Positions 7,816-64,000 of a stretch of 64,000 nt of DNA are shown here, piece after piece (position 1 is the stretch's first letter; each line of letters opens with the position of its first letter). Under the pieces are notes generated by a model that was given only the letters and a program-made list of their open reading frames with translations, was not told the origin of the DNA and made no database searches. Position numbers and translations under genes: made by a program. This DNA is from Aphrocallistes beatrix (Eukaryota; Porifera; Hexactinellida; Sceptrulophora; Aphrocallistidae): NCBI GenBank assembly GCA_963281255.1, contig OY725499.1:1302001-1366000 (forward strand). The letters run 5' to 3'.

Positions 7816-10144
7816 CAGCGGTTCTCAAACATTTCCTCATTGTGTACCCTTAAAGCAGGATTTTATGCGGCTCGTACCCCTTCAAATGGATCACAACCTT
7901 ACTTTATAAATATTATTATTACAATCCCTTTAAGTTGTGGAGAATATACTTGTTTTATTAATATAGAAATATAGCGGATGGATGTGCTTGCATTTTGCGC
8001 ACTAGGTTATCAATTCGTGGTACAGTTTTCGTAAGGGCCAGACGGAGATCATCTTCGACTGCCATCCGCGCTCGAAATTTGTTCTTGATTAGAAAGAGCG
8101 AAGAAAATCCTTGCTCACAGAGATAAGTGCTGGGAAACATTAATAAGGGTTTTACAGCTATTTTTGCCACGTTGGGATACATCACGCTCATTTCGCACCA
8201 AAACTTGTCTGGCATTGGAATCGTTGATTAGTTCAACAAATTCTTCTTGGAGTATGTCAGGTATCGAAGTTACATCCAAGATAAATGGATTTCGAATCAT
8301 TTTCATGTCCGAATCGCTCAGATCTGGGAAGTAATCCTGAAGTCCATTGCGTAATGCGGATAGATGAGCCTTTATTAGAGCACATATACTCTGATCTGTA
8401 GTATCTCCAAGAGCTGCTGACAAGTTTTCAAAGAAATCTAACTTTCCAACGCTTACTTTAGCTTCCCAGAGTTCTAGTTTCATAAGAAATGCCCGAATCC
8501 TGTCCACAAAATCAATTATGATAGTAAACCGTCCTTGGAGTGACTTGTTGAGCAAGTTGATACGCGTGAAAATGTCAGTTAAGTAGACGAGTTTTTTCAG
8601 CCATTCTTTATCTGAGAGTTTATTGAAAAATAATTTTGACTTCTCTTTCCCATCGCGTTCAAAGAATTCAAGCAATTGGTTTTTCAGTGAACTTACTCGA
8701 GAGAGCATGTTCCCGCGTGACAGCCAACGAACTTCAGTATAGAAGAGTAAATTTTCATGGTCACTATCTATTTCTTGGCACAATAGGCGGAACATACGTG
8801 TATTCAAAGCACTGGACTTGATAAAATTGACCATGGTTACAATATCGTCAAGAACAAGTTTTAGATGTGATGGAAGTGTTTTAGATGCAAGAGCATATCG
8901 ATGTATCATACAATGATTGTGTTTCGAGACTGGATTGACTCTCTTTACTCGAGCTCGAAATCCTGAATGAATCCCTAGCATAGCAGGTGCACCATCTGTT
9001 GTGCAAGCAGAAACGTTCTTCCAGGATAGTCCCATCTTTTCGAAATAATCAGAGACCTGCTGAAAGATATCTTCTCCTTTCGTAGATGTCTCCAGGCACT
9101 GACAAAATAGGAACTCTTCCTTAAAGTCCCCATCTTTAATGTACCGTGCAAATACCAGTAGCTGTGCACAACTAGAAACATCAGTTGACTCATCAAGTTG
9201 AATTGAAAAGGTGTTCAAAGGAGCTCCCAGAATCTCAGCAACTATCTGCTGCTCAACGTCATCTGCCATATCTCTAATCCTGCGCTTAATGGTGTCGTTG
9301 GAGAACGGTAGAGAAGCGAGTTTCTTTTCAGCACTATCTCCCAGAACGCAATGCACGATGTCCTTGCAACAGGGGAGTATAAGGTTCTCTGCAATTGTAT
9401 GCGGTTTCTTCGCCTGAGCGATGCGGAAAGCCACCATGTACGATGCACGAACGCCCGCCTGAGTCTGTTGACTGAATTGCCCTCCATGATCGAGACGGAT
9501 TCGCTTTACTCCGACCTCTTTGTGCTTAAAGAAATCGATATCTTTAGTTGCAAGATCAGGGTGGCATCCGCTTAAATGGCGTTTTAGAAAACTTGGTTTC
9601 ATCGAGCTCTCAGATAACACCTTACAACAAACTACACATTATGGTAGTTCCTGCCCCTCTTTAAGTATGAATGTAAATCCGTACTTGATATAATCCTCAT
9701 TATACTTCCGTTTCTTAGCAGATTCCATAATAATTTTGTTAAAGCGTAAATTGTCAAGGTCACAAACGAATACTGGTTCAATCAAGTATTTACGTTTTAT
9801 ACTTTGTAAGAATACTTCTATACACGGGTAGGTGTGATATGCAAATTGACATGGGGTGACACATAGGTATGTAGAGATAATGGAATCCTTAATAGCATAA
9901 CCACAAACAATAGCACAGGTGATAACTAATAATTATAATTATTGAAGAAACCATTGCAACCGATATATTTTAACTAAGTATACTAATATCAATTTACTTT
10001 GTAAGTGCTGGTCTGTTGGGATGCTGGAGTGGGGCGAAATTTATTATAACCGAATTGATATTATTTTGTTAAACATCGGCGTACCCCTATAAAAAGTGTT
10101 GACGTACCCCCAGGTGTACGCGTACCCCAGTTTGAGAACCCCTA
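7816..10144 (-). mobile_element. hAT element with BED-finger transposase, 2.33 kb
   Basis: Inverted ends CAGCGGTTCTCAAAC and TAGGGGTTCTCAAAC, flanked by a perfect 8-bp duplication CTTTAAAT (7808-7815 and 10145-10152). About 500 bp of non-coding sequence follows the transposase start on the right. Small internal-deletion relatives with similar tips occur (38709-38868). Confidence 0.92.
7958..9647 (-). pseudogene. hAT transposase of the ZBED5/FAM200-like type, frameshifted
   Basis: This is a DNA-cutting transposase of the hAT superfamily. The frame upstream of 9620 gives CVVCCKVL...FLKRHLSGCH, a BED-type C2H2 zinc finger, preceded immediately by a TAA stop where Gln would be expected. Then come the family landmarks FSIQLDESTDVSSCAQLLVF (first catalytic Asp region), CTTDGAPAMLG (second Asp), and EVRWLSRGNMLSR (the conserved Trp insertion motif). 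A one-base frameshift near 8220 separates these from the C-terminal dimerisation end, read in another frame as LLMFPSTYLCEQGFSSL (catalytic Glu) and DDLRLAL. All regions of a roughly 600-residue family member are present, but the frameshift and the early stop inactivate it. The family call is firm. Confidence 0.9.
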
Positions 10145-24112: not shown

Positions 24113-25117
24113 AAGCGCGCTTCGCTTGCTTACGCTGCGCGGCTGGCGAACACAAAGTGTCCGCTGGGGGCGCCCTTCGGTTGCCTGTGGTCATCATTGA
24201 TTAATTATACGGGAGATTGCATCTCTAAATACGTCTGTCCTACTATTAGAATCGAAATGACACGAAAAATCACCAAATTTGTCAATTTTTAAAATTTTAT
24301 GCGTAATGATGAAGTCATAACAAAGTGAAGAGTCATCATTTTTGATGATAGTTGCATCATATGGGAGATTAAAATTTCAGCTTTCTATCGCTTAAAATGG
24401 CTGAGTTATAGTTGAAAAACTGAAATTTCTAATTATAAAAAAGGTGACAATGACGTCATAATTCCATGATGAGTCGACTTTTTCTTGAGCTCAGAGCTTA
24501 CTGGAGCCATAGCCAAAGACTCCGACATACCAAAATCAGCTTTCTGTGCCTGGCAGTTTCTTCAATCAATTCGTTACAGATATACACTGCCCTACCAAAA
24601 GTATTCGTACACCCTAATAATTCCCATACAGATTGTATAAATCGTATCTATTTTGGGAGTCAATATTAATAAATCAGTAATAGTTCGACTAAATTTGCCT
24701 CAAAATTAAAATTCTACACACTCGATTTACTCATTTTATAGTCTTTCAACTCAATTACTCTATTTTAAAGCTAAAATATTTCAACCCGTGACACTTAGTG
24801 CCACTAGCGCCATCATATATAGTGGCATCAATTTATGGTATGTGGCACAATGATTTAAATGTTCAAATATTTATGTTGGAAATAGAGTAATTGAGTTGAG
24901 AGACTATACAATGAGTAAATCGAGTGTGTAGAATATGAATTTTAAGCCAAATTTAGTCAAACTGTTACTGATTTATTAATATTGACTCCCAAAATAGATA
25001 CGATTTATACAATTTGTATGGGCATTATTGGGGTATACTAATACTTTTGGTAGGGCAGTGTATATATATATATACACATATACATACACATTAATCGAGT
25101 TTGAATAGTAAGGATAT
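24113..25117 (-). mobile_element. Non-autonomous Helitron with nested Tc1-like MITE
   Basis: On the minus strand it starts TCCTTACTATT, preceded by A, and ends in the GC-rich hairpin region (CAAGCGAAGCGCGC). It is interrupted by the MITE 24585-25060. It has the family core (TAACGAATTGATTGAAGAAA next to the 5' end, several TGACGTCA palindromes in the middle). No Rep/helicase gene. Confidence 0.8.
24585..25060. mobile_element. Tc1-like MITE (TACCAAAAGTATTCG family)
   Basis: Ends CACTGCCCTACCAAAAGTAT in inverted orientation on both sides with flanking TA. Nested in the Helitron at 24113-25117. Non-coding. Confidence 0.85.
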
Positions 25118-25775
25118 CCTTTCACTTAAGATTTTAATAGATATTCTATTTTCAATACTTTTTAGGATGCGACATAGGGGTATTTCGGGGCCTAGAGGGC
25201 CTAGAGAGTTTTGTACCCGAGAATAACCCAGTAATAGTTATAACTAACGAACCAATGGTCGGATTTGAACCTTTAAAAAACACAGAAAGAAACTTTTAGA
25301 TCTATTTTAAAGGGATATTGAAGGCTTTTCTTATAAATTTATGGGTTATATAAACTCCAAAGGGTCCAACCAATGTTTGAAGTCCGTATCATTAAAAAAT
25401 ACCAAATATGTAAAAACCAATTGAAAGATGCTTCAAAAACCCTCCAATTATCTTCAAATTTGAGAAGCGCGTCGCAAAACTTTAGGGGGAAAACTAAATG
25501 AAGTAAAATAGGTACCTTCTAACTAGCACGATAAGATGGTAGACCACTCAGTAATACAATGAAATCAATAACAACAAAATTTGGCGGGTTTTAAATATCA
25601 GGCACATTTTCTCGAAGGCGGTATCCTTAAAAGGAAATGAGTAATAGTTGCAGCATTCCCAGCCTTAATCAGGATTAAATTAATAAAACATGGGAAATTA
25701 TAAATGTTCGTTTCAAGGCGTCTTTACTCAAAATTCGTCAGATAATTTTATGCTGAAATTTGGCCAAAATCTCTA

Positions 25776-26324
25776 CACTCGCCTACCAGAATTATTCGTA
25801 CCTTCCAATATCCTCCACCCTAATAATTGTAACAAGCGCGCTTCGCTTGCTTGCGCTGCGCGGCTGGCGGACATACTTGTCCGCCGGAGGCTCCCTTCGG
25901 TCGCCTGGAGGTGACATTGGTTAATTATAAGGGAGATATCATCTCTAAATATGTCCATCTTAGTTTTAAAATCGATATCACTCTAAAAAACACAAAATTT
26001 GTCAATTTTTAAAATTTTGATGAGTAATGATGACGTCATAGTAAAGTGATGAGTCATCATTTTTTGATGATAGTTGCATGATATGTGAGACGTGTTACTA
26101 TACAGATTCTATTAAATTTTCAGCCTTCTATCTCCTATAATGGCTGAGTTATGCCCGGATAACTGTGTTGCTTAACTTTTAAAAATGTGACAATGACGTC
26201 ATAATTCCATGATGAGTCGACATTTTGCTCTGAACTCAGAACTTACTGGAGCCATAGCCAAAAGACTCCCACATGCCAAAAATCAGCCTTCTGCGCCCGG
26301 CAGTTTCTTCAATCAATTCGTTAC

Positions 26325-26405
<81 letters not shown>

Positions 26406-26725
26406 CATCGAGTTTTAATAGTAAGGATACTGGAGGCAATAATACGATCCCAAATTTTCAATCATATGCCACATATCAGGAATGAACAACAATATATATT
26501 GCCTTTAGTAGCAAAAGAAGAAAATTATTAAAGTCAAAGAAGATTAATCGTGTTTAGAGAATATTAAAAAATAATTAGAGAGTTTGAATACGAATTTAAT
26601 GCAAATTACGTGAATATGTTACTGATTAATGGGTTAAATGCTATTGATTCAATGAAAATACGATTATTATACGTGGATGCGAAAAATTAAATAATTGGGA
26701 GATACTAATAATTTGTTAGGGTGTC
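25776..26725. mobile_element. Tc1-like MITE, old, split by a Helitron
   Basis: The left tip CACTCGCCTACCAGAATTAT and the right end, TACTAATAATTTGTTAGGGT at about 26703-26722, are diverged versions of the 24585-25060 ends. The Helitron 25833-26427 lies between. No gene in the remainder. Confidence 0.6.
25833..26427 (-). mobile_element. Non-autonomous Helitron with long TA array
   Basis: Minus strand: A at 26428 (complement), then TCCTTACTATTAAAACTC; the 3' tip is CAAGCGAAGCGCGCTTG followed by T. A TA microsatellite of about 75 bp (26328-26402) sits just inside the 5' end. The open frames of repeated Tyr-Ile across it are artefacts. Confidence 0.85.
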
Positions 26726-26869
26726 TATGTCTCTGGATTCTGAACCGATTTTAAGTTATATAACTTGTTTGAATAGTCCTGTCCCTAAACACTTCCAGTT
26801 GGAATTTTAGAGTTAGCTGATTAAGCCATTTGTACCTTTTTTAATGTTTGTTTGTGTATATATATATAT

Positions 26870-27012
26870 ACAAACGTGCTTCGCTTGCTTGCGCTCCGCG
26901 GCTGGCGGACACTTTGTGTCCGCCGGAGGATCCCTTCGGTCGCCTGGGGTCACATTGGTCAATTATAAGGGAGATAGCATCACTAAATATGCCTATCTTA
27001 GTGATAATTATA
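26870..27012 (-). mobile_element. Helitron 3'-end fragment fused to gypsy sequence
   Basis: The Helitron tip (CAAACGTGCTTCGCTTGCTTG on the plus strand) and about 120 bp of family sequence end abruptly around ATCGAT at 27016-27021, where reverse-transcriptase coding sequence begins. ATCGAT occurs in both parents, so the join lies in a 6-bp microhomology. Confidence 0.7.
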
Positions 27013-27590
27013 ACCATCGATTTGCCGTAGATTACTGGGATCTCAACGATGTGACGAAGCGAGATACCTATCCGTTGCCGGATCCCCGAGATGTTTTCGA
27101 TCGTATGGGAGGAGCAACTGTATTCTCTACACTGGATGAGGCATCCGCATACTGGAGCGTGCTTGTGAAGGAAAAGCATAGGGAGTTCACTGCTTTTGTT
27201 TCAACGCGGGGCCATTTTGAATTCAACCGCATGCCTTTTGGATTGTCAAACTCACAGGCTACCTATCAGCGAGCGGTAGACCAGGCTCTACGAGGGTGTC
27301 CGAATGTACAGGCATTTGTTGATGACACATGTGTCCACTCGCCCAGTTTCGATACGCACCTGGAGCATTTGGATGAGGCTCAGTTGGCTATTCTAAAAAT
27401 TGAGGATGAAGAATGTGAGGATTGGGCTTTTGTGTGTACTGATTGCTGTATTGACGGAAAAGATATGCTACGTTGTATTTTAATGACTTCAAGTAACTGT
27501 TTACTCAACAACAAGGTCAAGAATATTACTTTTACCACCTCTTGTCCCAAAGATACTCAAAGGAAGATACTTAAACTTACCTCTAATTAA
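27006..27590 (+). pseudogene. Ty3/gypsy reverse-transcriptase piece fused in frame to P-type transposase C-terminus
   Basis: The open frame (from 26844) gives HRFAVDYWDLNDVTKRDTYP, then FSTLDEASAYWSVLV, MPFGLSNSQATYQRA and FVDDTCVHS: reverse-transcriptase motifs in family order, with FVDD as the active-site box of the palm domain. At about 27390 (HLDEAQL) it passes without a stop into EECEDWAFVCTDC, SSNCLLNNKVKNITF and KILKLTSN, which align to the C-terminal end of the P-type transposase at 33080-33282. The matching upstream part of the same reverse transcriptase lies inverted at 28362-28701. The chimera has no start of its own beyond Helitron sequence. I regard it as a by-product of rearrangement, not a working gene. 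Confidence 0.75.
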
Positions 27591-27813
27591 TATATGAATA
27601 TATATACACCTATATATTTATTTAGTATTCCTTGTCCGTCAACTAAATTATGCCAGCAGTCAGTAATATCATTATTGTGGGGTAGAGGATGTATAATTAC
27701 ACGATAGTAAATATATCAAAATGATATTGTGTTAAATTTCATTGTATTAAAAACTCGACTTTATCTTATCCCTGGTCTAAAGTAGTGAAATGGCCTGTAT
27801 GTAGTAGGCTATG
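27532..27813 (+). repeat. Left arm of 282-bp inverted repeat (P-type 3' end)
   Basis: From TACCACCTCTTGTCCC to the P-type tip GTAGTAGGCTATG. It is almost identical, in opposite orientation, to 28080-28361. Each arm holds the last codons of the transposase and the 3' non-coding end of a P-type element. Confidence 0.9.
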
Positions 27814-28050
27814 ACACATTCTCTTAAAATTTCAGCCTTTTATCACTGAAAATGGCTGAGTTATGGTTGAAAAACTGAAATTTCTAATTATAAAAAAAGT
27901 GACAATGACGTCATAATTCTATGGTGAGTCGACATTTTCGTCGGAGCTCAGAACTTACTGGAGCCATAGCTAAAAAACTCCCACATGCCAAAAATCAGCT
28001 TCCTGCGCCCGGCAGTTTCTTCAATCAATTCGTTAAGATATATATATATA
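27814..28050 (-). mobile_element. Helitron 5'-half fragment
   Basis: Family sequence from the region AAAATTTCAGCC to TTCTTCAATCAATTCGTTA and a TA run, without either exact tip. It forms the loop between the 282-bp inverted arms. Confidence 0.7.
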
Positions 28051-28361
28051 TACAGTCAACTCCGCTTAATAGGGTCATTCATAGCCTACTACATACAGGC
28101 CATTTCACTACTTTAGACCAAGGATAAGATAAAGTCGAGTTTTAATACAATGAAATTTAACACAATATCATTTTGATATATTTAATATCGTGTAATTATA
28201 CATCCTCTACCCCACAATAATGATATTACTGACTGCTGGCATAATTTAGTTGACGGACAAGGAATACTAAATAAATATATAGGTGTATATATATATTCAT
28301 ATATTAATTAGAGGTAAGTTTAAGTATCTTCCTTTGAGTATCTTTGGGACAAGAGGTGGTA

Positions 28362-29202
28362 GAAATCGATGGGTCCCGTCCTTTTTCTTCACTAAGATCA
28401 CTCGACTCGCCCAAGAGGAAGAAGAGGGACTTATGATCCCATTCTCGAGCATTTCATCCATCTGCTTGGATACTTCCGCCTCAATTTCCGGAGAAACACG
28501 CAACGGCTGGCTTCTGATCGGCCGCTCATCCAGAAGAGTGATAATGTGTTCCGCGGTTCCAATTTCGTGCGGGCTCTTCGGGTTCTCCGCGAAAACGTCT
28601 TTCCATCTCGACAGCACCTTGCGTATGGCTGTCTCTTCTCGCGGTGATAGTTTCGGGTTTATATCGAACCTGGCCTCCAAGCTATCTCCCTCCTTTCCCA
28701 TCTTTCGTGTTCTAGTGGTCGACCATCCCCCACATCTATCGCCACGCAGGCCGTACCACAGACCTCAAGCGCTGTCCGCCCTGCCCATACACTTGACTGT
28801 ACTTTGTGCTGTAAGGGATATTCATCTTTTGTATGGTGCATGTCCACCACCGAAGGATCCGCCCCCGTGTCCATTATTACATTGATGGGTTTGCCGTTCC
28901 ATTAAACTGGTACCACAACCGCCGTCTCATGTACAACACTATGCTGCGTCGTGGCCTGAAATACCCCTCTTCGACTTCGTGTATGTGGGCAATAGCGGAC
29001 CTCGTGTCCTCTTTCGCCACATTTCGCAGTGCCGTTCCGGGCATTGGGCCATAAAGTGCCTGTCCGAGTCGCAAATAAAGCACCGACCCTTCTTAGGGAA
29101 TTGGCTTGCCGGATACTTCCTTGTAGGTTCATCCCGCCTCCCCATTGCCCCTTTGCTGCGTGGCGCATCCTTATATGTATAGAAACAGTTGAGAGCTAAC
29201 AT
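28362..29202 (-). pseudogene. Ty3/gypsy gag-pol fragment (zinc knuckle, protease, RT N-terminus)
   Basis: On the minus strand, in order: a gag zinc knuckle CFICDSDRHFMAQC (CX2CX4HX4C) around 29090-29050; MDTGADPSVV near 28874, the aspartic protease active-site motif; then, after frame changes, KLSPREETAIRKVLSRWKDV and QMDEMLENGIISPSSSSW, ASRVILVKKKDGTHRF, the N-terminal part of a gypsy reverse transcriptase. It stops at THRF, exactly where the plus-strand piece at 27006 resumes (HRFAVDYW). Stops and frame changes make it non-functional. No LTR, integrase or envelope is visible nearby. Confidence 0.8.
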
Positions 29203-29276
29203 TCAAGAACAAATACAACGTAAAAGTAAAAAGGAACCATATAGCAGAGAAAGAAAATAGCCATAACATTGATATA

Positions 29277-29461
29277 CAGTCAGGGTCGCTTATTATGAAC
29301 CCGCTTAATATGAACATTCGTTTATTATGAACTAACATCCTGGTCCCATTTTCATTTTTTAGATAGGATTTGTATTGAATCGAGTCCGCTTAATATGAAG
29401 TATCTCTATTATGAACATATTTTTTAGTCCCCTGGTTGTTCACAATAAGCGACCCTGACTG
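29277..29461. mobile_element. Pogo-like MITE (GCTTATTATGAAC family)
   Basis: Ends CAGTCAGGGTCGCTTATTAT and, inverted, CAGTCAGGGTCGCTTATTGT, with TA on both sides; 185 bp, non-coding, nested inside the P-type element. Confidence 0.88.
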
Positions 29462-29809
29462 TATAATTTATAGGAACGTAGACTAGTTTCATATAGTTAT
29501 GCATCAAACTAATGATGAATTAGATTTGGATTATTTATTCATATTATGGGTGCGTAAGAAAAACCACTTTATCTTATCCCTGGTACCATGGAATATTGTT
29601 TAGTGAAAAGGCCTTATTGTAGTAGGCTATGGGTCATTGTTTAATCGGGTCAACCGCTTAATTGGGCCACTTTTGGCAGGACCAGAATAGCCTCAAAAAT
29701 AGAAGCTAATACAAAATATTTTCGGTTAATAGGGTCTCCGCGTTATCGGGGTAAAATGTCCTCTGACCGATGTGACCCTATTAAGCGGAGGCGACTGTAT
29801 ATATATGTA

Positions 29810-30060
29810 TATATATCTGTAACGAATTGATTGAAGAAACTGCCATGCACAGAAAGCTGATTTTTGGCATTGGGAGTATTTTGGCTATGGCTCCACTAAG
29901 TTCTGAGCTCAGACGAAGATGTCCACTCATCATGGAATTATAACGTCTTTGTCACATTTTTTATAATTAGAAATTTCTGTTTTTCGACCATAACTCAGCC
30001 ATTTAAAGTGATAGAAGGCTGAAATTTTAATAGACTGTGTATATTAATATATCTCATCGT
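29810..30060 (+). mobile_element. Helitron 5'-half fragment
   Basis: From ATATCTGTAACGAATTGATT to TTTTAATAGACTGTGTATAT the family sequence is present. The outer 5' tip is lost in a TA run and the 3' half is missing where the P-type element begins. Confidence 0.7.
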
Positions 30061-39968: not shown

Positions 39969-41936
39969 GATAATACCTAACCCAAACAAGTCATTGAATA
40001 ATTGGAACTATGATATAATCGCTATGGTAGTAAATATGTTATAGTATCTGTTCATCCATGATATCAGTAATATATATTTAGCATGCAAAATTCATACTAT
40101 ATAGTAGTTGTGGTTTACTAATAATTGCCATCCACTAAGCTCCACAAACAACCAACCTGTTTGTTCTATATTTGGTTCGTTGGTTTCAAAATATTTCACC
40201 TTAGCACTATATCTTTTAATTTATTATTTGCTTCTCTCCTATCTATTTTATGATAGCTTCTGTTCTGTTTCTAGATGTAGAGTAATTATTCTCCAGCAGA
40301 TTGTGTAATTTGTGAACCTGTTCGAGTAGTCAGACGAGATTTTAAATCAACAACTTGATCATTCTGAGAGAAGAACAATTGGTCCGGGACAGGACAGTTC
40401 ATTCAAGAAGACAATAGCCGTTGAGATGGGAAGGGGGTTCCTCCTTTTCGGTGATGAATCTATTGTTTCTATAATTACCAGAAACACGGTGCAAATACAT
40501 GCTGGAATATTGGAAATCACTGAATACTGGGGAAACCTACCAAGCGTTGAGCTGGAACTACTTTAAAGCAGGAGACCGAGATTCTAGTACAGTTGTAACT
40601 AACCAGAGGGCACACATGATCTAATTTTTACACTGTGGTTTTGGCAAGGGGTTCACAGAATAATGAACATAGTAATTGCTGTAATTAGTTCAGACTCAGA
40701 AAATTGTTAGAGGTGCTGTAATAAATTTCAGTGCCTACTCCAATTAACAATGAATGAAAGCTTCAAATATATGTACCTGGTAAAATCATAAGTATCGATG
40801 ATATATTTTAAGACTTTTATTAGGAGATGAATATGCTATCTTGTATATTTCAATTGTCTACAAGCCAAATGGCTGCTAACAAGGGAAAAGATCATAGCAA
40901 AGGATGTGACAAGATCTCTAATTCTTGGAATATGGATGTTGTTAAAGGACTCACTATCATGTTCATATATCATTACCGAAATAATATTGAAAAACGGGAT
41001 TTCAGTTCAGCTCTTGGTGATAAGTTGGAAAGAATTCCTCTACTGTAGAAACAGTTCTGTCTAGTAGTACGATGTGGAAAGAGCGAAACATTGCAGCACA
41101 CGATAGTCTCCGGACAAAGGAAGTTCATACAGTTTGGGGCGCGCGAGAAGTACGATGTTAAAAGAAATCGATGCTGGAGGGGTGTTAGCCGACTACTAAC
41201 AAACGCAGGCTACTCTCTCTAAAATTTAACGTCTTGTCGACTATTCGGAGCCACAGTTTTCTGATCTCAAATTAAAAAGAAGGCTAAAGTATATTCATGC
41301 TAGTTATGGGAAATTATTTTCACATTATGGTAATTAATTCTGGTTTTATCTAAGAAACCGTCATACCCACGAAAGAGTAGGAAACATTATATTTACGAAG
41401 ACTAAGAGATCGAGAGAAGAATATTAACTAAAGGATGGAAAGAGATGAGAGCGAGCTATCATGAACATTTTACTGTTAATTTAACATATTTTACTGTCTT
41501 GAGAAAATATCCAAACACAGTATTGAAAAAATTATAGACGAAGGTTTCGTTAACAAGATTCATATTATCTATAAAGAACTAAAAAATTGATGATTGAGGC
41601 GAATACCAAGTGTTCACATTCTGCGCCGCAAATCAAGCGTAGTAAAGTGATATAATTTATTGTAATTATAAAAACACTCCCTATTCCCATGTTAAGGCAT
41701 GCTACCTATAAATGAGTAAACAAACTGGAATAACACCAATTCTTTGGGGAATAATGAATTTAAAATCTTGAATATCAATGTTATGTATGCTTTCAATAAG
41801 GTTTTATATCCAAACAGTAGATACAAAGAGTATAATCGTCAATTAAAAAAATAAGTTATTTTTTCAGATTCGAAGAATGAAGCGTTCGGGTTAGCGAGTG
41901 TACAGTAATATATTTAATTTAATTTAATTTAATTAC
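39969..41936. other. No gene seen (first part of the MMS19 intron)
   Basis: No recognisable transposon or protein. A short piece near 41884-41907 (TTCGGGTTAGCGAGTGTACA) recalls a pogo-like tip. Confidence 0.45.
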
Positions 41937-44396
41937 CTGCAAGGGTATTGTTTGCATGAAAAAAACAATTATGGCTAAAAACCTTTGTCGAATATCTCCT
42001 TCAGAGTTTGCAAAACCATGCAAAATATGTTCTATATGGGATGAGTAAAATCTTTGCTTATAAAATATGTTTATATTCGACAAAACTTTAAAAGTGAAAA
42101 ATTCTTCATCTCTGAGTAAATCAGAAAAAACTTCCACAGCATGGTCTCCTAATGTTGACGAAGGAAAAAGACTTAATATTTCAAGTGATTTATTCAAATA
42201 ACCAGGGTGTGAACAAATTATAATTCCTTTAAGCATAATACCATAGCTTTTCAAAAATCTGGGATTTTGTTGTTCAATAACAAAAGAATACAGAGGTTCT
42301 AAACGAGCTATTTCTTTGAAAATAGCAGACTCAGATAATTTGTTTACCAGACAACTGAACATCTGTGCACCATAGAGAGAGCACTCAGAATCAATTTTAA
42401 CGAATTTGAAAGAAATATCAAGTATTGATGAAACAAAAGATTCATATAAATGAAGAGGAGAAGCTCCCAAAATGACTGAAAAAATACGAAAATTTTCAGT
42501 GTACGACATTTCAGATAACAATTTACCCTGAACATATTCCTTAAATAAAATATCTATCCATTGCGTTTTTAAATCCATACTTAATTCAACAAACACCAAT
42601 CTGAATAAACTTAAGATGAATTTAGAACATTTACCCCCTGTAAAATTTCGAAATAGAGGGCACAAGACTGACTGGGAATACAACTTTTCATAAAATTTTT
42701 GCTCACATTTCTTCCAGACATTCATGAGGAACTCAACACACAATTTTAACGAATTTACACCATTATCTATGGCTATTTCGATTGACATTGGTATAATTTC
42801 TTCTGCAATATTTAAATTCGAGCAAATTACAGTCAAAATAGTATAAATTTGTCTTTTATTATGTTGTTCAGCAATTATTTTTCTACCACGGATAATTAGC
42901 ATGTCTTGAATTGATCTAAAACTAGTTTTAGCAATATAGTCTAACATTCCATTCTGTAAATCGCAATCCTCAATCTCCCTTGAAATAAGTAAAGTCTCCA
43001 AATATATGCTCACAATCGTCTCCACTTCATTCTCAGATAAGCAGGATGGAACACAGAGCATCGAATTAAGTAACTTAAAAAGATAGCATCTATCAGCACA
43101 TTGCTGCTGCAACTTAAATTTGCTTATAGTTGAGGAGAACAATGAGTTTTTCACCAAATTAACCACTTTTAACTCAATATCACTAATTGCAAAGCGGGTC
43201 ACTAAAATTGATACAAAATTAGAAAGAGATTGAAGCACTATTGGATTATAATCATATTTTGCTTTTTCACACAATATAGGAAGTACAATACTTCCTATCT
43301 GAGAGAATGTGCTGGGTTTACATGATGCTGCAATTAGTATCTCTATACTTGAATTCACTAATTTATCATCTGAATCTAACAAATGATGCTTTGTATCATG
43401 AATTATATGATCAACAAGCTTGTATGTTTCTTCTGAATTCCAATTAGAAAAAGCATGTACTAATTGACTGATAGCCTTAAGGCCTTTTTGATCTAACTCC
43501 CGGAATTTGGTCAAAAATATAAGATTCTTTATTGCATACCAAATACTTTCAGTGTAACATTTTAATTTTACACAACCATAAATAGGTATAATAATATTAA
43601 ATAACTCAATTGAATCTCTTTTAGCAGTTAATATCTCTGAGTTCATTTTTTCAAGTAGAAGTGGTAATAAACTATCGGAAAACAAAGGACTGGAGCTAAG
43701 AGCAGTAGAGAGAACAACTGCAAGCTCCGAACGTGTAATATCAATTTCAGGAGTGACCTCGATATCAACAGGAAAGTAACACCATATAACTTCAAATAAT
43801 TCTCCTAAGAGCAGCGTAATAGGAAGGTACATAGTGATCAATGGGACACTCTGTAATGCAATCATTAAATTCCTAGGATCGATTTCACCATCTATTGCTT
43901 GGATAAAACCATATACAAAATCGCTTCCCATTTTAACTGCTGCGGAATTGTGTAGTACAAGAGTATGTTGGATGATTGATTGTGCATAGAATCTAGCTCT
44001 TTGGGTTAGAGATGCAATCTGTAATCTGGAAAACATTTCCCTCACCAAGCCTATAACATTTTCCTCTCTAACAGTTCTTATCCTGATCAAATGCATCATC
44101 CCAGATAACACTTGTTCCATTAATACAAAACGATCTTTGATTTTGGAAATGTAAAATTCAGAAAAAACAAATACCTCTCCCACGCTAAGTTTAGCCCATA
44201 AATAATGTATCAAATCAGAGAGTAGATTCAACCCATTCAATCGAAAATCAATTATGTTACTCAGGAGATAAGGTTGTAATGAATATGCTAGATCTTCTAA
44301 TCTAAGGAGACCATTAGAAATAGAGGCAATGATTTGGAAAGCATTCCTACTGGTGGGAAATCGAAAATAGTCTTCTATTAACATTTTGAGATCCAT
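41937..44396 (-). CDS. MMS19: MMS19, large 5' coding exon
   Basis: MMS19 is the HEAT-repeat adaptor of the cytosolic iron-sulfur targeting complex: with CIAO1 and CIAO2B it hands 4Fe-4S clusters to DNA polymerases, helicases such as XPD and other nuclear proteins. The exon begins at the ATG at 44396 and runs 820 codons to a donor site (GCAG/GTAATT at 41937/41936). Diagnostic stretches are GSDFVYGFIQAIDGEIDPRN (about residue 160), ELFEVIWCYFPVDI, SDSLLPLLLEKMNSEILTAK (about residue 245) and, near the end, FYKQRFYSSHI, all in family order. These belong to the N-terminal MMS19 domain and the long HEAT solenoid. The frame is intact and the next exon (18057-18425) continues it in phase. Having this much coding sequence in one exon is unusual for the gene. 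A P-type MITE lies 103 bp upstream of the ATG. Confidence 0.93.
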
Positions 44397-59186: not shown

Positions 59187-60232
59187 GTGCTAAAAACAGG
59201 CTACAAAGCAATTTTCTTCGCAAAGGTTTGATTTCCATTAGTTTATTAAGGTTTATTAAGGATAGCGTTTATTAAGGATACCGCCCTCGAAAAACATCGC
59301 ATGACATTAAAAAAAATGTCAACTTTTTTGTTGTTAATTCCATCATAGTAATGAGTGGTCCACCATCTAATCGTACTTGTTGGAAGGTATTTATTTTGAT
59401 TTTTATGTGGTGACCCCCTAAAGATTAGTGTTAGTAAATATTGGAAAATAATCAGTGGTTTTTCGGCGCATTCATCAATTAGTTTAATACTTATCCGATA
59501 TTTTTTAATGATAAAGACCTAAAAATGATTTTGGCCCATTTAAAGATTATAAAACACAAAAATTTAGAAAAAAAAAGCATATAAATCCAAACAAAATAGC
59601 TCCATGAAGGACTTCATTTCTAAAATGCTCGGGAAATGGCCACTGTGGTATTAATCTGATCTTTTTTTTTAAATTGTTCAGATCCGACCATTTTTTCGAA
59701 AGTTATCGTATATTTAGGGAAATTTCGGACATTGTGCCTCTCTGGGGTCCCTGAAAAGGCCGATGTCATATCTTAAAACTATTAAAGATATAAAATCTAT
59801 GATCATCCTAAAAAATGGTAGGATATATATGATAATATATAGATTCCTCAAACATCTCTTTGTCAAAAATAAATATTTCTTGACTTATCTTTATTTTATT
59901 GTAATACAAATTCTATGGAGAACTTTGACTATATTAGAAAATGGCGAATCTAGTCATGGAATATGTGCCCAAATGTAGCTATTAAACAAAGAATCAATGC
60001 AATTGTTACTAAAAATGGATACTGAAAAATTGGTTCACTTTTCATGATTATTTTATTTTGGTTCTGGCCTTTTACGTCCTAGATTCGGTCAAAACCCCCA
60101 TTTATGGTCCAAAAACTGATTCCTCCCTATCTCTGGAAATATATACCCAAATTCTTAGCTCTCAATTCCAAATATACTTTTCAAGACGGTATATATCTGA
60201 TTCTTTAATAATAAGTGTACTACATCGAATGG

Positions 60233-60268
60233 CACAGTGGTTTAAAAACACAGTTAGTAAAGAATAGG
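60233..60268 (+). promoter_or_regulatory. Left inverted end, RSS-like
   Basis: The heptamer CACAGTG (60233-60239) equals the consensus heptamer of vertebrate recombination signals. GTTTA follows; the second block AAAGAATAGG begins 19 bases after the heptamer. No ACAAAAACC nonamer at a 12 or 23 spacing is seen. Confidence 0.8.
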
Positions 60269-60282
60269 TATATAGATGCACG

Positions 60283-60575
60283 TTAGCCCTATCAAATGTA
60301 TTATATGCATATAGGTTATCCACCCTTGGAAAACGATTGGCATAATAAAAAATTTTATATGGCTTCAGCTGTGCAAGATATGGCTTCCCCATATTTTGCC
60401 GAAATTTGTTCTTTTGCTCATATTTCTTTCAGATTTGCTATTAGCTCCATGAAATGTATTAGATTCATATAGGTTATCAACCCCTAGAAAGCCATAAGTG
60501 CACTCAGAATTGTTATATGTCTTCGTTTTTTCGAGATATGGTTTACCTAGAATTTGGTGAATATATTTTATATTG
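60283..60575. repeat. Subterminal direct repeat, two units of about 155 bp
   Basis: Unit one starts TTAGCCCTATCAAATGTATT (60284) and unit two TTAGCTCCATGAAATGTATT (60440). Both continue with CATATAGGTTATC, a CC(C)T(T/A)G word, and end near ATTTTGCCGAAAT / AATTTGGTGAATA. They lie between the left end and the 3' end of the transposase gene. Confidence 0.75.
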
Positions 60576-60752
60576 CATTTTTCAAAAAAATTTTCCACAT
60601 CTCAGAAAATCGTAAAAATATTATGAGATAAACTGTACATCAAAAGTGGGAAAACCCGCAGTACACGATAATTTGATTGTCAAATGAAGACACAATGGTT
60701 CTTAATGATGATGACAACACACATACACAAATATTGTACTAATCCTATAAAT

Positions 60753-62930
60753 CTAAGTGTTAATTATGAGTGTATCGACAATTGTATCTATTGATGAAAG
60801 TGATGAATTATTTCTGCAACACTTAGCTCTTTTTGTGTGCCCGTGTTCTCCACATCTTTCGCAAACTAACTTTGATCGGAATAGATTTAGTATGGGGTCA
60901 CTTTCAGAAGCCAATCTCACAAAAATGTCGACCACATTGTCTTCAAATGAACACTTCCTAGCGAGATTCTCCCTGTACTTTCTTATTAGCTTGTTACAAG
61001 CCTCGGAACCTTCCTCAGAGAAGCATTTCAAGCCGTGTCCGAAATTCAAGTCGTTCAAAATTTCTTCTGAGTGAGCTAATACGCGATGCAATGTCGGTGT
61101 AACGCCTGCCCAAGGAAACGAGTCCAGAATTAAGAGATAGGTGTTCGTGCATAGATCGCCAAATTCTTCGGTGTGTATCTTCCTGTCTGAATTTATTATT
61201 CTAAGAATAGCTGACAATCGTGTATGTAATTGTGAAAGTGTCTCCCTGTACTCAATTGCAACACATGACGAAACGCAATCAATAAATTTTGACTCGGAGG
61301 AAAAAGCTCGACGCGCAACACCACCAGTAGAGGTAGTACCCCCCTTAGGATCAGGCTGGTCTATCTTCAAACCAGTCTTCTCTTGTACGAGAGTTCTGAC
61401 AAAGACCATCGAATTTTTAACTGCAGTCGATGTTGGTGACCATGTAAGTTTACCGCAGCTCAAATGATAAACTAGTAGAGTAAACCACCTGAAGATACAA
61501 GTGTATGAGTGTAGAGGAGATGCTGGAAGGATATTTATAGTGGAAGTTGGTTCGTGGGTGAGGTTATAACGTTCGTTTGAGGGTAGAGAAAAGAAAGAAT
61601 CGTTATCGATTTCTCCAAATAGTTGAATGGCGTCAGTAATGTGTCTATTGATAGGAAATCCCTGTATTATCAATTCACGATCTTTCAGTTCATCGTGAGT
61701 AGCGGTACATAATTGGCAACTTGCCCCACCTGCTCCAGATAGAATTGCTGACATTTTCCCATCAAACATTGACCGAACAATGTCGATATGAACTTGTTGA
61801 TTATCCCCAAGAGAAAATCCTTCATTCTTCATTAACTCAGTTTCCGGATTGATTAAATCGGTCATGAACTGCTTGATATTATTTTCATTTTCCTTCGCAG
61901 CGAGAAGGAAAATGGGTCGCTGGGTGAAGGGAGAATTCGGACTGGTGTTTTTCCAGAGTTCTCGACCGCTGAAGGTTGTAATCTGCACTGCCTAAAAACA
62001 GAATAGGATGTATGCTTTAGTCTCTGTATTCGTGCTAGACTGGTTGTAAATTCTGTGACTTCCGGAGCCATCTAGTCCATCTGCAATCTGAAATCGCAGA
62101 GGAAAGTCTTGAGCTGCAGGAGGAGGTATGGTGAACAAGATTCGGTCGAGTGTATGACGGACGTATTGTGCATATGGTACGTGCGCACCAACTGGAGTAG
62201 CAGGATTGGGATATAATTGAATAATATTTCGTAAAATAATGCTGTTCCTTTGTTCCACAACCTTATGATATGCAGGGAAATGAATATCGCTAGATAGCAA
62301 GTGATGGCGTAGGTTCGTATATTTTCTCCTCCCAATCTCTAACATATCTACAAGGAATAACGCTTTGCTGACATCCAGTTCTTTCTTCAATATGTTCCCG
62401 AATTGACCGGGGAACTTATCATACACGATTGACTTTGAAACTTTTGCTATCCCACGATTCTCTGTTAGATTGGATAACAGTTGTAAGGCAAGCGCCGCGA
62501 TTTTTATTTCAGAGGTATTCTCAATCAGTGAGAGTGACTTGATAGATTCCAGCACACTTGAGAGTCGAGAACGTTGCTGTTGCATGGAAAGATGATCAAG
62601 GGTCTTCCTATGGGTCACAGAAAGTGTGGCTACTTCTGCTTCGTCGTCTGAAGGCAATTCAAGGGAGTCAGAAATGCGATTTCTTTTCACCTCTGGTTCA
62701 GTGGAAATGTTAGAGTGCCACCATTCTCCCTCTAAACAATCTAAAGATTTCTTTGCTTTCTTGACCCTATCTCGAATTCTGAATAGTATTGATTCCAAAC
62801 TTTTCTTATCGAAATCTAATTCGAAGTTTTGTTGTAGGTAATTCACCGTTGTCAAGATACAATTGTTATTTTCTTTTAAGAGTCTTGCAAATTCAATACG
62901 GGAATTTGGGAAAGATAACTTCTCAGCCAT
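60753..62930 (-). CDS. RAG1L: RAG1-like transposase, one in-frame amber codon
   Basis: RAG1-type transposases cut at CAC-tipped ends by a DDE mechanism with hairpin chemistry. The frame runs 725 codons from the ATG at 62930 (MAEKLSFPNS). Residues line up with the RAG1 core in order: ADGLDGSGSH (first catalytic Asp, about 284; RAG1 DGMGD), MFDGKM (second Asp, about 390; RAG1 GYDEKL), then GGASCQLCTATH (Cys 405 and 408; RAG1 CTLCDAT), TGGVARRAF (RAG1 NGNFARKL), LHRVLAHSEEI (His 615 and 620; RAG1 FHKTLAHVPEI) and FSEEGSEACNKLIRKYR (catalytic Glu about 643; RAG1 ASEGNESGNKLFRRFR). A tail VCERCGEHGHTKRAKC resembles the CCGHC zinc motif of RAG1-like transposases. No RING finger is seen at the N-terminus. 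Codon 313 is TAG (61994-61992), at a position where homology continues on both sides, so it looks like a nonsense mutation or readthrough site. Confidence 0.9.
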
Positions 62931-63626
62931 GAGGAATGTGTCAATGAATAATGATTAAGAGATTCCAATACTGAAGCTTTTTACATCATCAGACATTTAT
63001 TTATAATATCGGTATAGTGTTCATACTTTGAGTTGAAATACGATGAGTGTGGTTGTAAGAATAATATCTTATTTTGTTACATAGTTACAATATTTGACAA
63101 TGGAATTTGCCTAACAACAAAAATATGACAATGGAATTCAATATAAAATCTTACTTTGCGCACTGTTTCGGGGCGTATCCGTTTAAACTATGAATTTAGA
63201 TCTAGTTAGGGGTATATTGTATCAATATCTAATTGAAGTTTTGTGAAGTTTACTTTTGCGAGCACTTTTGAATTTTTAATCAAATAAATTTTGATTCTAA
63301 GTTAGCAACAAGTATAGAATTTAATTTCTCAACTGAAATATTGAAAATACTTGATTGAAAACAGGTTATTCGGTTTCAGCATACTTTAAATGTATAAACT
63401 AAACTGAATTTTTCGTCTTGTATTGTTAGAAAATGATTTTGCTTATATTTGAATTGAGGTTAAATTTAGAATTCCCCGGAACCACAATTTTAGCTAAAAT
63501 GAACATGCATATTTGTAAGTGTAATTGTACTGCTTCTAGGCACTCAATTGCTTAGAAAATTGAAACAAGTTTTATTCAAACAATAAGTAATCGAATAAAA
63601 TCATAGGAAAGGAGATCTATTTTTTT
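62931..63626 (-). other. 5' non-coding part of the RAG1-like transposon
   Basis: About 700 bp between the right end and the transposase start, with no second gene and no Kelch-type sequence. The transposase promoter is expected here. TGACAATGGAATT occurs twice about 30 bp apart (63097, 63127). Confidence 0.55.
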
Positions 63627-63653
63627 CCTATTCTTTGGTTCTAAACCACTGTG
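63618..63653 (-). promoter_or_regulatory. Right inverted end, RSS-like
   Basis: Read inward on the minus strand: CACAGTG (63653-63647), GTTTA, then AAAGAATAGG starting 10 bases after the heptamer (63636-63627). Confidence 0.8.
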
Positions 63654-64000
63654 AATGGAATGCTAAGTTTTTAAATTTTTATCACGTGATGACGTAGCAT
63701 TTTTCGAAAATCCTAACTTGAAAACAAAAAGTCGTAGACTATCGCTCTAACTTCCTAATATACTTTTTAGAAGCTCTTTATTCATTCTAAACCGATGAAT
63801 TATACTTTGTAGTGCTAGGAGTATGAAATATATTTCCCAATTGGTTCAAAATATTCGCGGTTAGAGGTCTCAAGGTAATTTGTGAATTTTCAGTATAATT
63901 TTGATATTTTCCTCAAAATCTGTTGGAATATATCTAATTCATCAGTATAAATGCGATTAAATGCCTATGGATGCTTTTGTTTATCGTTAATAGCTCATTT

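Follow-up and report, generated by a model that had tools for sequence, protein, structure and literature searches.

We analysed a window of 64,000 nucleotides from the glass sponge Aphrocallistes beatrix (contig OY725499.1, positions 1,302,001 to 1,366,000 of the forward strand; all coordinates below are those of the window unless a contig handle is given). The window is about 35% GC, and the genome searched with it comprises 100.5 Mb in 28 contigs. Near its right edge lies a whole DNA transposon of 3421 bp with inverted, CACAGTG-tipped ends (60233-63653), which carries one RAG1-like transposase gene. The left end, from 60233, reads CACAGTGGTTTA, and the right end is identical on the opposite strand, ending at 63653. 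The target site duplication (TSD) AATGG stands on both sides (60228-60232 and 63654-63658, plus strand). When the two flanks are joined through one AATGG, the resulting sequence matches a dispersed repeat at at least 40 places with 94-97% identity over the full or nearly full 174 bp (the 40 that were scored out of 1033 first-look candidates), and all five repeat copies that we fetched have a single AATGG and lack the element. The host sequence of the insertion, represented by the flanks 60121-60232 and 63659-63720, is thus an abundant dispersed repeat. Perfect inverted pairs of 12 bp whose ends lie 0.5-6 kb apart between identical 5-bp flanks, a criterion fixed after the element had been seen, occur three times in the window, this element included, against one in total in 30 first-order Markov resamplings. 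We conclude that the element is a real insertion that was recently mobile. A first-pass annotation made from the sequence had reported the inverted ends, the perfect duplication and a RAG1-like transposase; this observation is real and confirmed, and its borders are corroborated both by the empty sites and by copies elsewhere in the genome.

Searching the genome with the transposase, we recovered at least 110 matching pieces that are 29-100% identical, a lower bound since 101 of 272 candidates were scored. Five complete copies of the main family (the window copy, C13, together with C1, C2, C9 and C15) are separated by 5 to 27 substitutions along 3.4 kb, which, as far as this genome goes, does away with the suggestion that the window holds one of few elements of this type readable as a whole. 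An open frame of 726 amino acids is present in three of the five but not in the window copy or C1. Exact TSDs flank C13 (AATGG), C1 (AATTA), C2 (CAAAT) and C15 (GAAAA), and the TATCC of C9 has an additional base at one of its two sides. Two further copies bring the main family to seven with both ends, a tally that leaves aside C19, where the match to the right end does not reach the tip, and several places with one end only. One of the two (C17:3178554-3184438) has decayed tips and no duplication; in the other (C2:4963719-4969184) both tips read ACAGTG and adjoin the TSD AATAT, an appearance as if the first C were missing from both ends. Three diverged families also have both ends and a duplication (C2:5356663-5359992, CAAGA; C4:3643123-3646187, TTAAG; C17:2022770-2025774, GGCTA), of which TTAAG and GGCTA are not independent evidence because the scans required similar flanks. 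A search for near-identical 14-bp terminal inverted repeats with a TSD returned unrelated repeats only, and looser searches succeeded. When two loci on C4 and one each on C14, C3, C17 and C10 were extended for a second end, a pair was found at two of them and none at the rest. Separately, two opposed right ends lie 5.4 kb apart and share a 12-bp outer flank (C13:1098915-1099032, minus, and C13:1104446-1104563, plus).

These copies bear on whether the locus could be a host gene domesticated from a Transib rather than a mobile element. Related proteins are indeed common among the homologues: all 14 organism-named members of a set of 72 come from Oopsacas minuta, another hexactinellid, and several of these carry the database label 'V(D)J recombination-activating protein' or transposase. 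The named homologues point to a glass sponge as the likely host, with the reservation that Transibs may move between species. The differing flanks of near-identical copies, the TSDs and the empty sites, together with the internal stop codon of the window copy described below, speak so strongly for a mobile element that we give domestication next to no chance.

The transposase frame (60753-62930, minus strand) is homologous to Transib and RAG1, comprises 725 codons and a stop, and contains no intron. The first-pass annotation had placed it correctly, but it had overlooked an in-frame TAG at codon 313 (61992-61994, minus). We considered an intron around this stop (GT..AG, 49 nt) and rejected it: the spliced frame is broken, and aligned relatives read through that place. 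The window copy is therefore not intact and could at most be mobilized by protein from another copy. In an alignment of 46 sequences, the column of the first catalytic aspartate, D287 (62070-62072), and both columns of the zinc-binding cysteine pair C405/C408 (ZnC2; 61707-61718) are invariant, and those of the second aspartate, D390 (61761-61763), the catalytic glutamate, E643 (61002-61004), and the histidine pair H615/H620 (ZnH2; 61071-61088) are at least 90% conserved, all on the minus strand. These residues and a C-terminal CCGHC zinc-knuckle-like tail, CERCGEHGHTKRAKC (60819-60863, minus), stand in the same order as in RAG1, as had been read from the window sequence, and the alignment bears this out. 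The tail is of the type CX2CX3GHX4C, with a final spacing of 5 in CERCGEHGHTKRAKC. It occurs in 9 of 18 sponge-type proteins, 0 of 16 in the Transib set and 0 of 4 RAG1 rows; over all fetched proteins, partial ones included, the counts are 19 of 72 sponge-query homologues, 0 of 120 in the Transib set and 23 of 68 in the RAG1/RAG1L set. The segment at 61521-61652 (minus) is the putative counterpart of the α11-α12 region through which RAG1 binds RAG2, to judge from its place and length in our own alignment. The stretch from the second zinc cysteine to the histidine of the LH motif measures 65-67 residues in all 18 sponge-type proteins and 64-67 in all 12 RAG1/RAG1L proteins, against 30 in all 16 insect-type Transibs.

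The two ends of the element are built unequally. At the left end, on the 3′ side of the gene, an outer 13-bp block CACAGTGGTTTAA (60233-60245, plus; heptamer 60233-60239) is followed after a 13-bp spacer by the inner 10-bp block AAAGAATAGG (60259-60268, plus), which begins at end position 27. At the right end, on the 5′ side, the outer block CACAGTGGTTTAG (63641-63653, minus; heptamer 63647-63653) and the same inner block AAAGAATAGG (63627-63636, minus) are separated by 4 bp, so that the inner block begins at end position 18. In the counting of Tao et al. the layout is thus 13 bp, a spacer of 4 or 13 bp, and 10 bp. The main-family ends examined keep the inner block at positions 18 (5′) and 27 (3′), with point changes in some copies, and the window element shows this layout with 10 of 10 letters matching. 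Across the four two-ended families, positions 18-27 of the 5′ end match the 3′ end at an offset of 9 in 10, 4, 9 and 6 of 10 letters, a total of 29 that was never reached in 20,000 shuffles. Because the main family served to choose the offset, it is fairer to exclude that family, which gives 19 of 30 matches, reached in 0.005% of shuffles. The 18/27 positions are shared by two families despite changed block letters and a protein identity of 51%.

The first-pass annotation had pointed to collecting further copies of the ends, and in these the CAC borders, inverted as in the window, and the 5-bp duplications recur; the tip is less uniform. Most of the ends examined begin with CACAGTG; CACAATG stands at one family's 5′ end and on a contig from a bacterial bin (L072, below), CACGGTG at another locus (L044), and a few copies have changed or decayed tips. 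The CACAGTG tip is usual, not fixed. Nor does the exact heptamer set the element apart from Transibs, as had been supposed: according to passages of PMC8355894, the heptamers and nonamers of some Transibs equal those of canonical recombination signal sequences (RSSs), and a few Transibs have 12/23-like ends.

It is possible, although we rather doubt it, that the asymmetry and two-part build of the ends serve no function, in which case the inner block and the spacings would be inherited baggage and the transposase would read the outer 13-17 bp only. Invertebrate RAGL transposons have been argued, in part of PMC7204232, to depend on the terminal 15-17 bp and to be relatively insensitive to asymmetry, and two of the four sponge families show the layout poorly. 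Against this stand the two families that hold the same 18/27 positions at 51% protein identity though the letters have changed, the agreement of the layout with that of AanRAGL (PMC9435367), and the preference of ProtoRAG for unlike ends described in passages of PMC8289069, where the distal block is also said to be needed for precision.

We next consider the branch to which the element belongs. It has the features of the Transib superfamily, namely CAC ends, a 5-bp TSD and a single RAG1-core-like DDE transposase, and among these it shows the features of Subgroup I, which Tao et al. (2022; PMC9435367) define by asymmetric ends, the α11-α12 region and a CTT1 tail. Transibs are related to the recombinase that rearranges antibody genes. 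The best match of the transposase in both sequence and fold is HzTransib (PDB 6pqn and related entries), and the Pfam RAG1 model matches weakly, under its cut-off. We built an unrooted tree from 46 sequences (18 sponge-type, 16 insect-type Transib and 12 RAG1/RAG1L) with the trait columns excluded. The sponge-type proteins lie on one side of a branch with support of 100/100, apart from the insect-type Transibs at 99/99 and from RAG1 plus RAG1L at 100/100; with a root by midpoint only, the tree speaks to this separation and not to a sister relation between sponge-type proteins and Transibs. We conclude, with a probability of about 0.88, that the element is a recently inserted cut-and-paste transposon of the Transib superfamily and of the Subgroup I kind in a glass-sponge genome, with no RAG2 partner encoded.

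The first-pass annotation had read the locus as a complete, cut-and-paste RAG-type element in an invertebrate, which holds, and had placed it on the RAG1L branch, which does not. For it to be a RAGL transposon after all, its RAG2L would have to have been lost or never carried, and the evidence makes this highly improbable. Its look is explained by the architecture that Tao et al. (2022; PMC9435367) regard as ancestral, that of Subgroup I Transibs, of which the tail and the RAG1 order are part. The proteins fall outside the RAG1 and RAG1L group at 100/100, have a mean identity of 25.0% with insect-type Transibs but of 19.7% with RAG1L, and contain the Transib-type motifs GTTSTGNIAR, SEEGSEACNK and SDP. 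Sponge homologues and the Transib set carry Pfam PF26100 or no domain, whereas most proteins of the RAG1/RAG1L set carry several further domains. A RAG1L-type query (P0198) found 11 pieces in the genome (best 3.3e-10), all at places already found with Transib queries. The element has no RAG2L gene, as the 520 and 723 bp outside the transposase frame leave no room for one; genome-wide searches with Pfam RAG2 and RAG2_PHD were empty, but their controls were silent too, so they are uninformative. The element is thus a new, recently active example of an already described Transib type and not a RAG1L.

Several points weigh against the Subgroup I Transib assignment. The asymmetric layout is clear in only two of the four two-ended families, weak in one (6 of 10) and missing from one (4 of 10), and the tail motif, as counted here, is absent from 9 of the 18 sponge-type proteins. 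The TSDs are mostly AT-rich, unlike the GC bias that passages of PMC8289069 report for ProtoRAG, Transib and RAG. The tree is unrooted, and identity to RAG1L is equal for sponge-type (19.7%) and insect-type (19.8%) proteins, though in the account of Tao et al. Subgroup I is the nearer of the two subgroups. The element fits Subgroup I by its features and not by phylogeny, the tree being built without sequences that Tao et al. name as Subgroup I, and the way in which the transposase would use the ends is predicted from sequence.

How the element would move can be pictured from what is observed, that is, CAC borders, 5-bp duplications, empty sites, near-identical dispersed copies, some open frames and two-part ends, and from HzTransib, RAG and ProtoRAG. 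By analogy with these systems, a transposase dimer would pair both ends, each strand would be nicked 5′ of CAC and the flanks closed as hairpins, and the excised element would be joined to its target at positions 5 bp apart. With less certainty, the zinc-knuckle tail and the core might read the outer block, and an N-terminal NBD-like part (about residues 116-180, assigned by place only) the inner block. The constant 9-bp offset, roughly one helical turn, may favour pairs in which one end has the short and the other the long spacer.

Two peptide patterns were scanned over a contig collection of 84,980 prokaryote species; there were 24 pattern matches, and a single relative emerged, L072 (JABAAK010000070.1), a 3260-bp contig in a bin of Candidatus Paceibacter sp. 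that is listed with 500,000 bases. Part of a sponge-type Transib frame is present on it (88-91% identity across some 32 residues), and no open reading frame exceeds 111 amino acids. Its 3′ end has the same layout, with the tip CACAATG and the block AAAGAATAGA at position 27, and it also carries pieces resembling other dispersed repeats of the A. beatrix genome. In our reading L072 is probably animal DNA, presumably from a glass sponge, that was assigned to a bacterial bin. Bacterial Transibs, among them one from Candidatus Thioglobus, serve as the root in the tree of Tao et al. (PMC9435367); L072 counsels caution when sequences binned with symbionts are used to root the RAG/Transib tree or when bacterial Transibs are claimed. 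Among the papers listed by a literature search, none had a title on a Transib element of sponges, and those listed for glass sponges did not mention Transib.

Between the left end of the element and its gene lies a subterminal region (60283-60561) with a 121-nt direct repeat in two copies that are 72% alike (60283-60403 and 60441-60561). Elsewhere the window contains the host gene MMS19 (41922-44396, minus), an open frame of 825 amino acids with matches to Pfam MMS19_N (1.1e-58) and MMS19_C (1.3e-10), and two probable mobile-element remnants, at 8118-9620 (minus; Pfam DUF4371, below cut-off) and 26844-27590 (plus; Pfam reverse transcriptase RVT_1). The other two perfect 12-bp inverted pairs, 24397-30002 (ATGGCTGAGTTA, flank TTAAA) and 26120-30022 (TCAGCCTTCTAT, flank AATTT), overlap each other and are possibly nested elements or the product of chance.

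How a transposon gave rise, step by step, to antibody-gene shuffling has so far been argued from few complete elements. This genome supplies several copies that are nearly identical, open frames together with the ends that belong to them, families that keep or blur the asymmetry, and an element that lacks RAG2. With these, two questions become testable: whether a RAG1-like subunit can read the asymmetry alone, and what role the RAG2-binding segment has in the absence of RAG2. As a conjecture that we consider unlikely in its entirety, glass sponges might harbour a large living radiation of ancestral-type Transibs (Subgroup I) whose transposase, without RAG2, already obliges ends with short and long spacers to pair, and at least some of the 'bacterial Transibs' used to root trees might be animal-host DNA in symbiont bins. 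If this were true, a 12/23-like rule would predate RAG2.

CAC tips and 5-bp duplications are features of HzTransib too. P0074, a relative of HzTransib at 91% identity, differs from the sponge-type proteins in having 30 residues instead of 65-67 between the second zinc cysteine and the LH histidine, and no CCGHC tail; from the figure legend and text of Tao et al. (PMC9435367), HzTransib appears to belong to Subgroup II. Vertebrate RAG1 and its RSSs share with the window element the heptamer CACAGTG, the core fold and an unequal pair of spacers. The nonamer ACAAAAACC and the 12-bp and 23-bp spacers of the RSS are absent here, where the inner block is AAAGAATAGG and the spacing from heptamer to block 10/19 in place of 12/23; the RAG1 rows lack the CCGHC tail, and the window element lacks RAG2. 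The ProtoRAG of amphioxus (BbRAG1L/2L), as described in passages of PMC8289069, also has a CCGHC tail, the α11-α12 region and two-part asymmetric ends, but it includes RAG2L, its tip is CACTATG and its spacers are 27/31. RAG1L proteins are about 20% identical to the sponge-type proteins. AanRAGL of the alga Aureococcus anophagefferens (PMC9435367) has the same 13-bp and 10-bp blocks, 4/13-bp spacers and 5-bp duplications, with other block letters (CACACCCAAACCT, CCTCAAYAYG). Subgroup I Transibs (PMC9435367) agree with the window element in a single RAG1-like transposase, the α11-α12 region, the CTT1 (CCGHC) tail and asymmetric ends; the hosts named for them are bacteria, fungi, plants, ctenophores, Hydra and 'other metazoans', sponges not being named, and what the glass-sponge element brings to the comparison is an exact CACAGTG tip and several near-identical copies.

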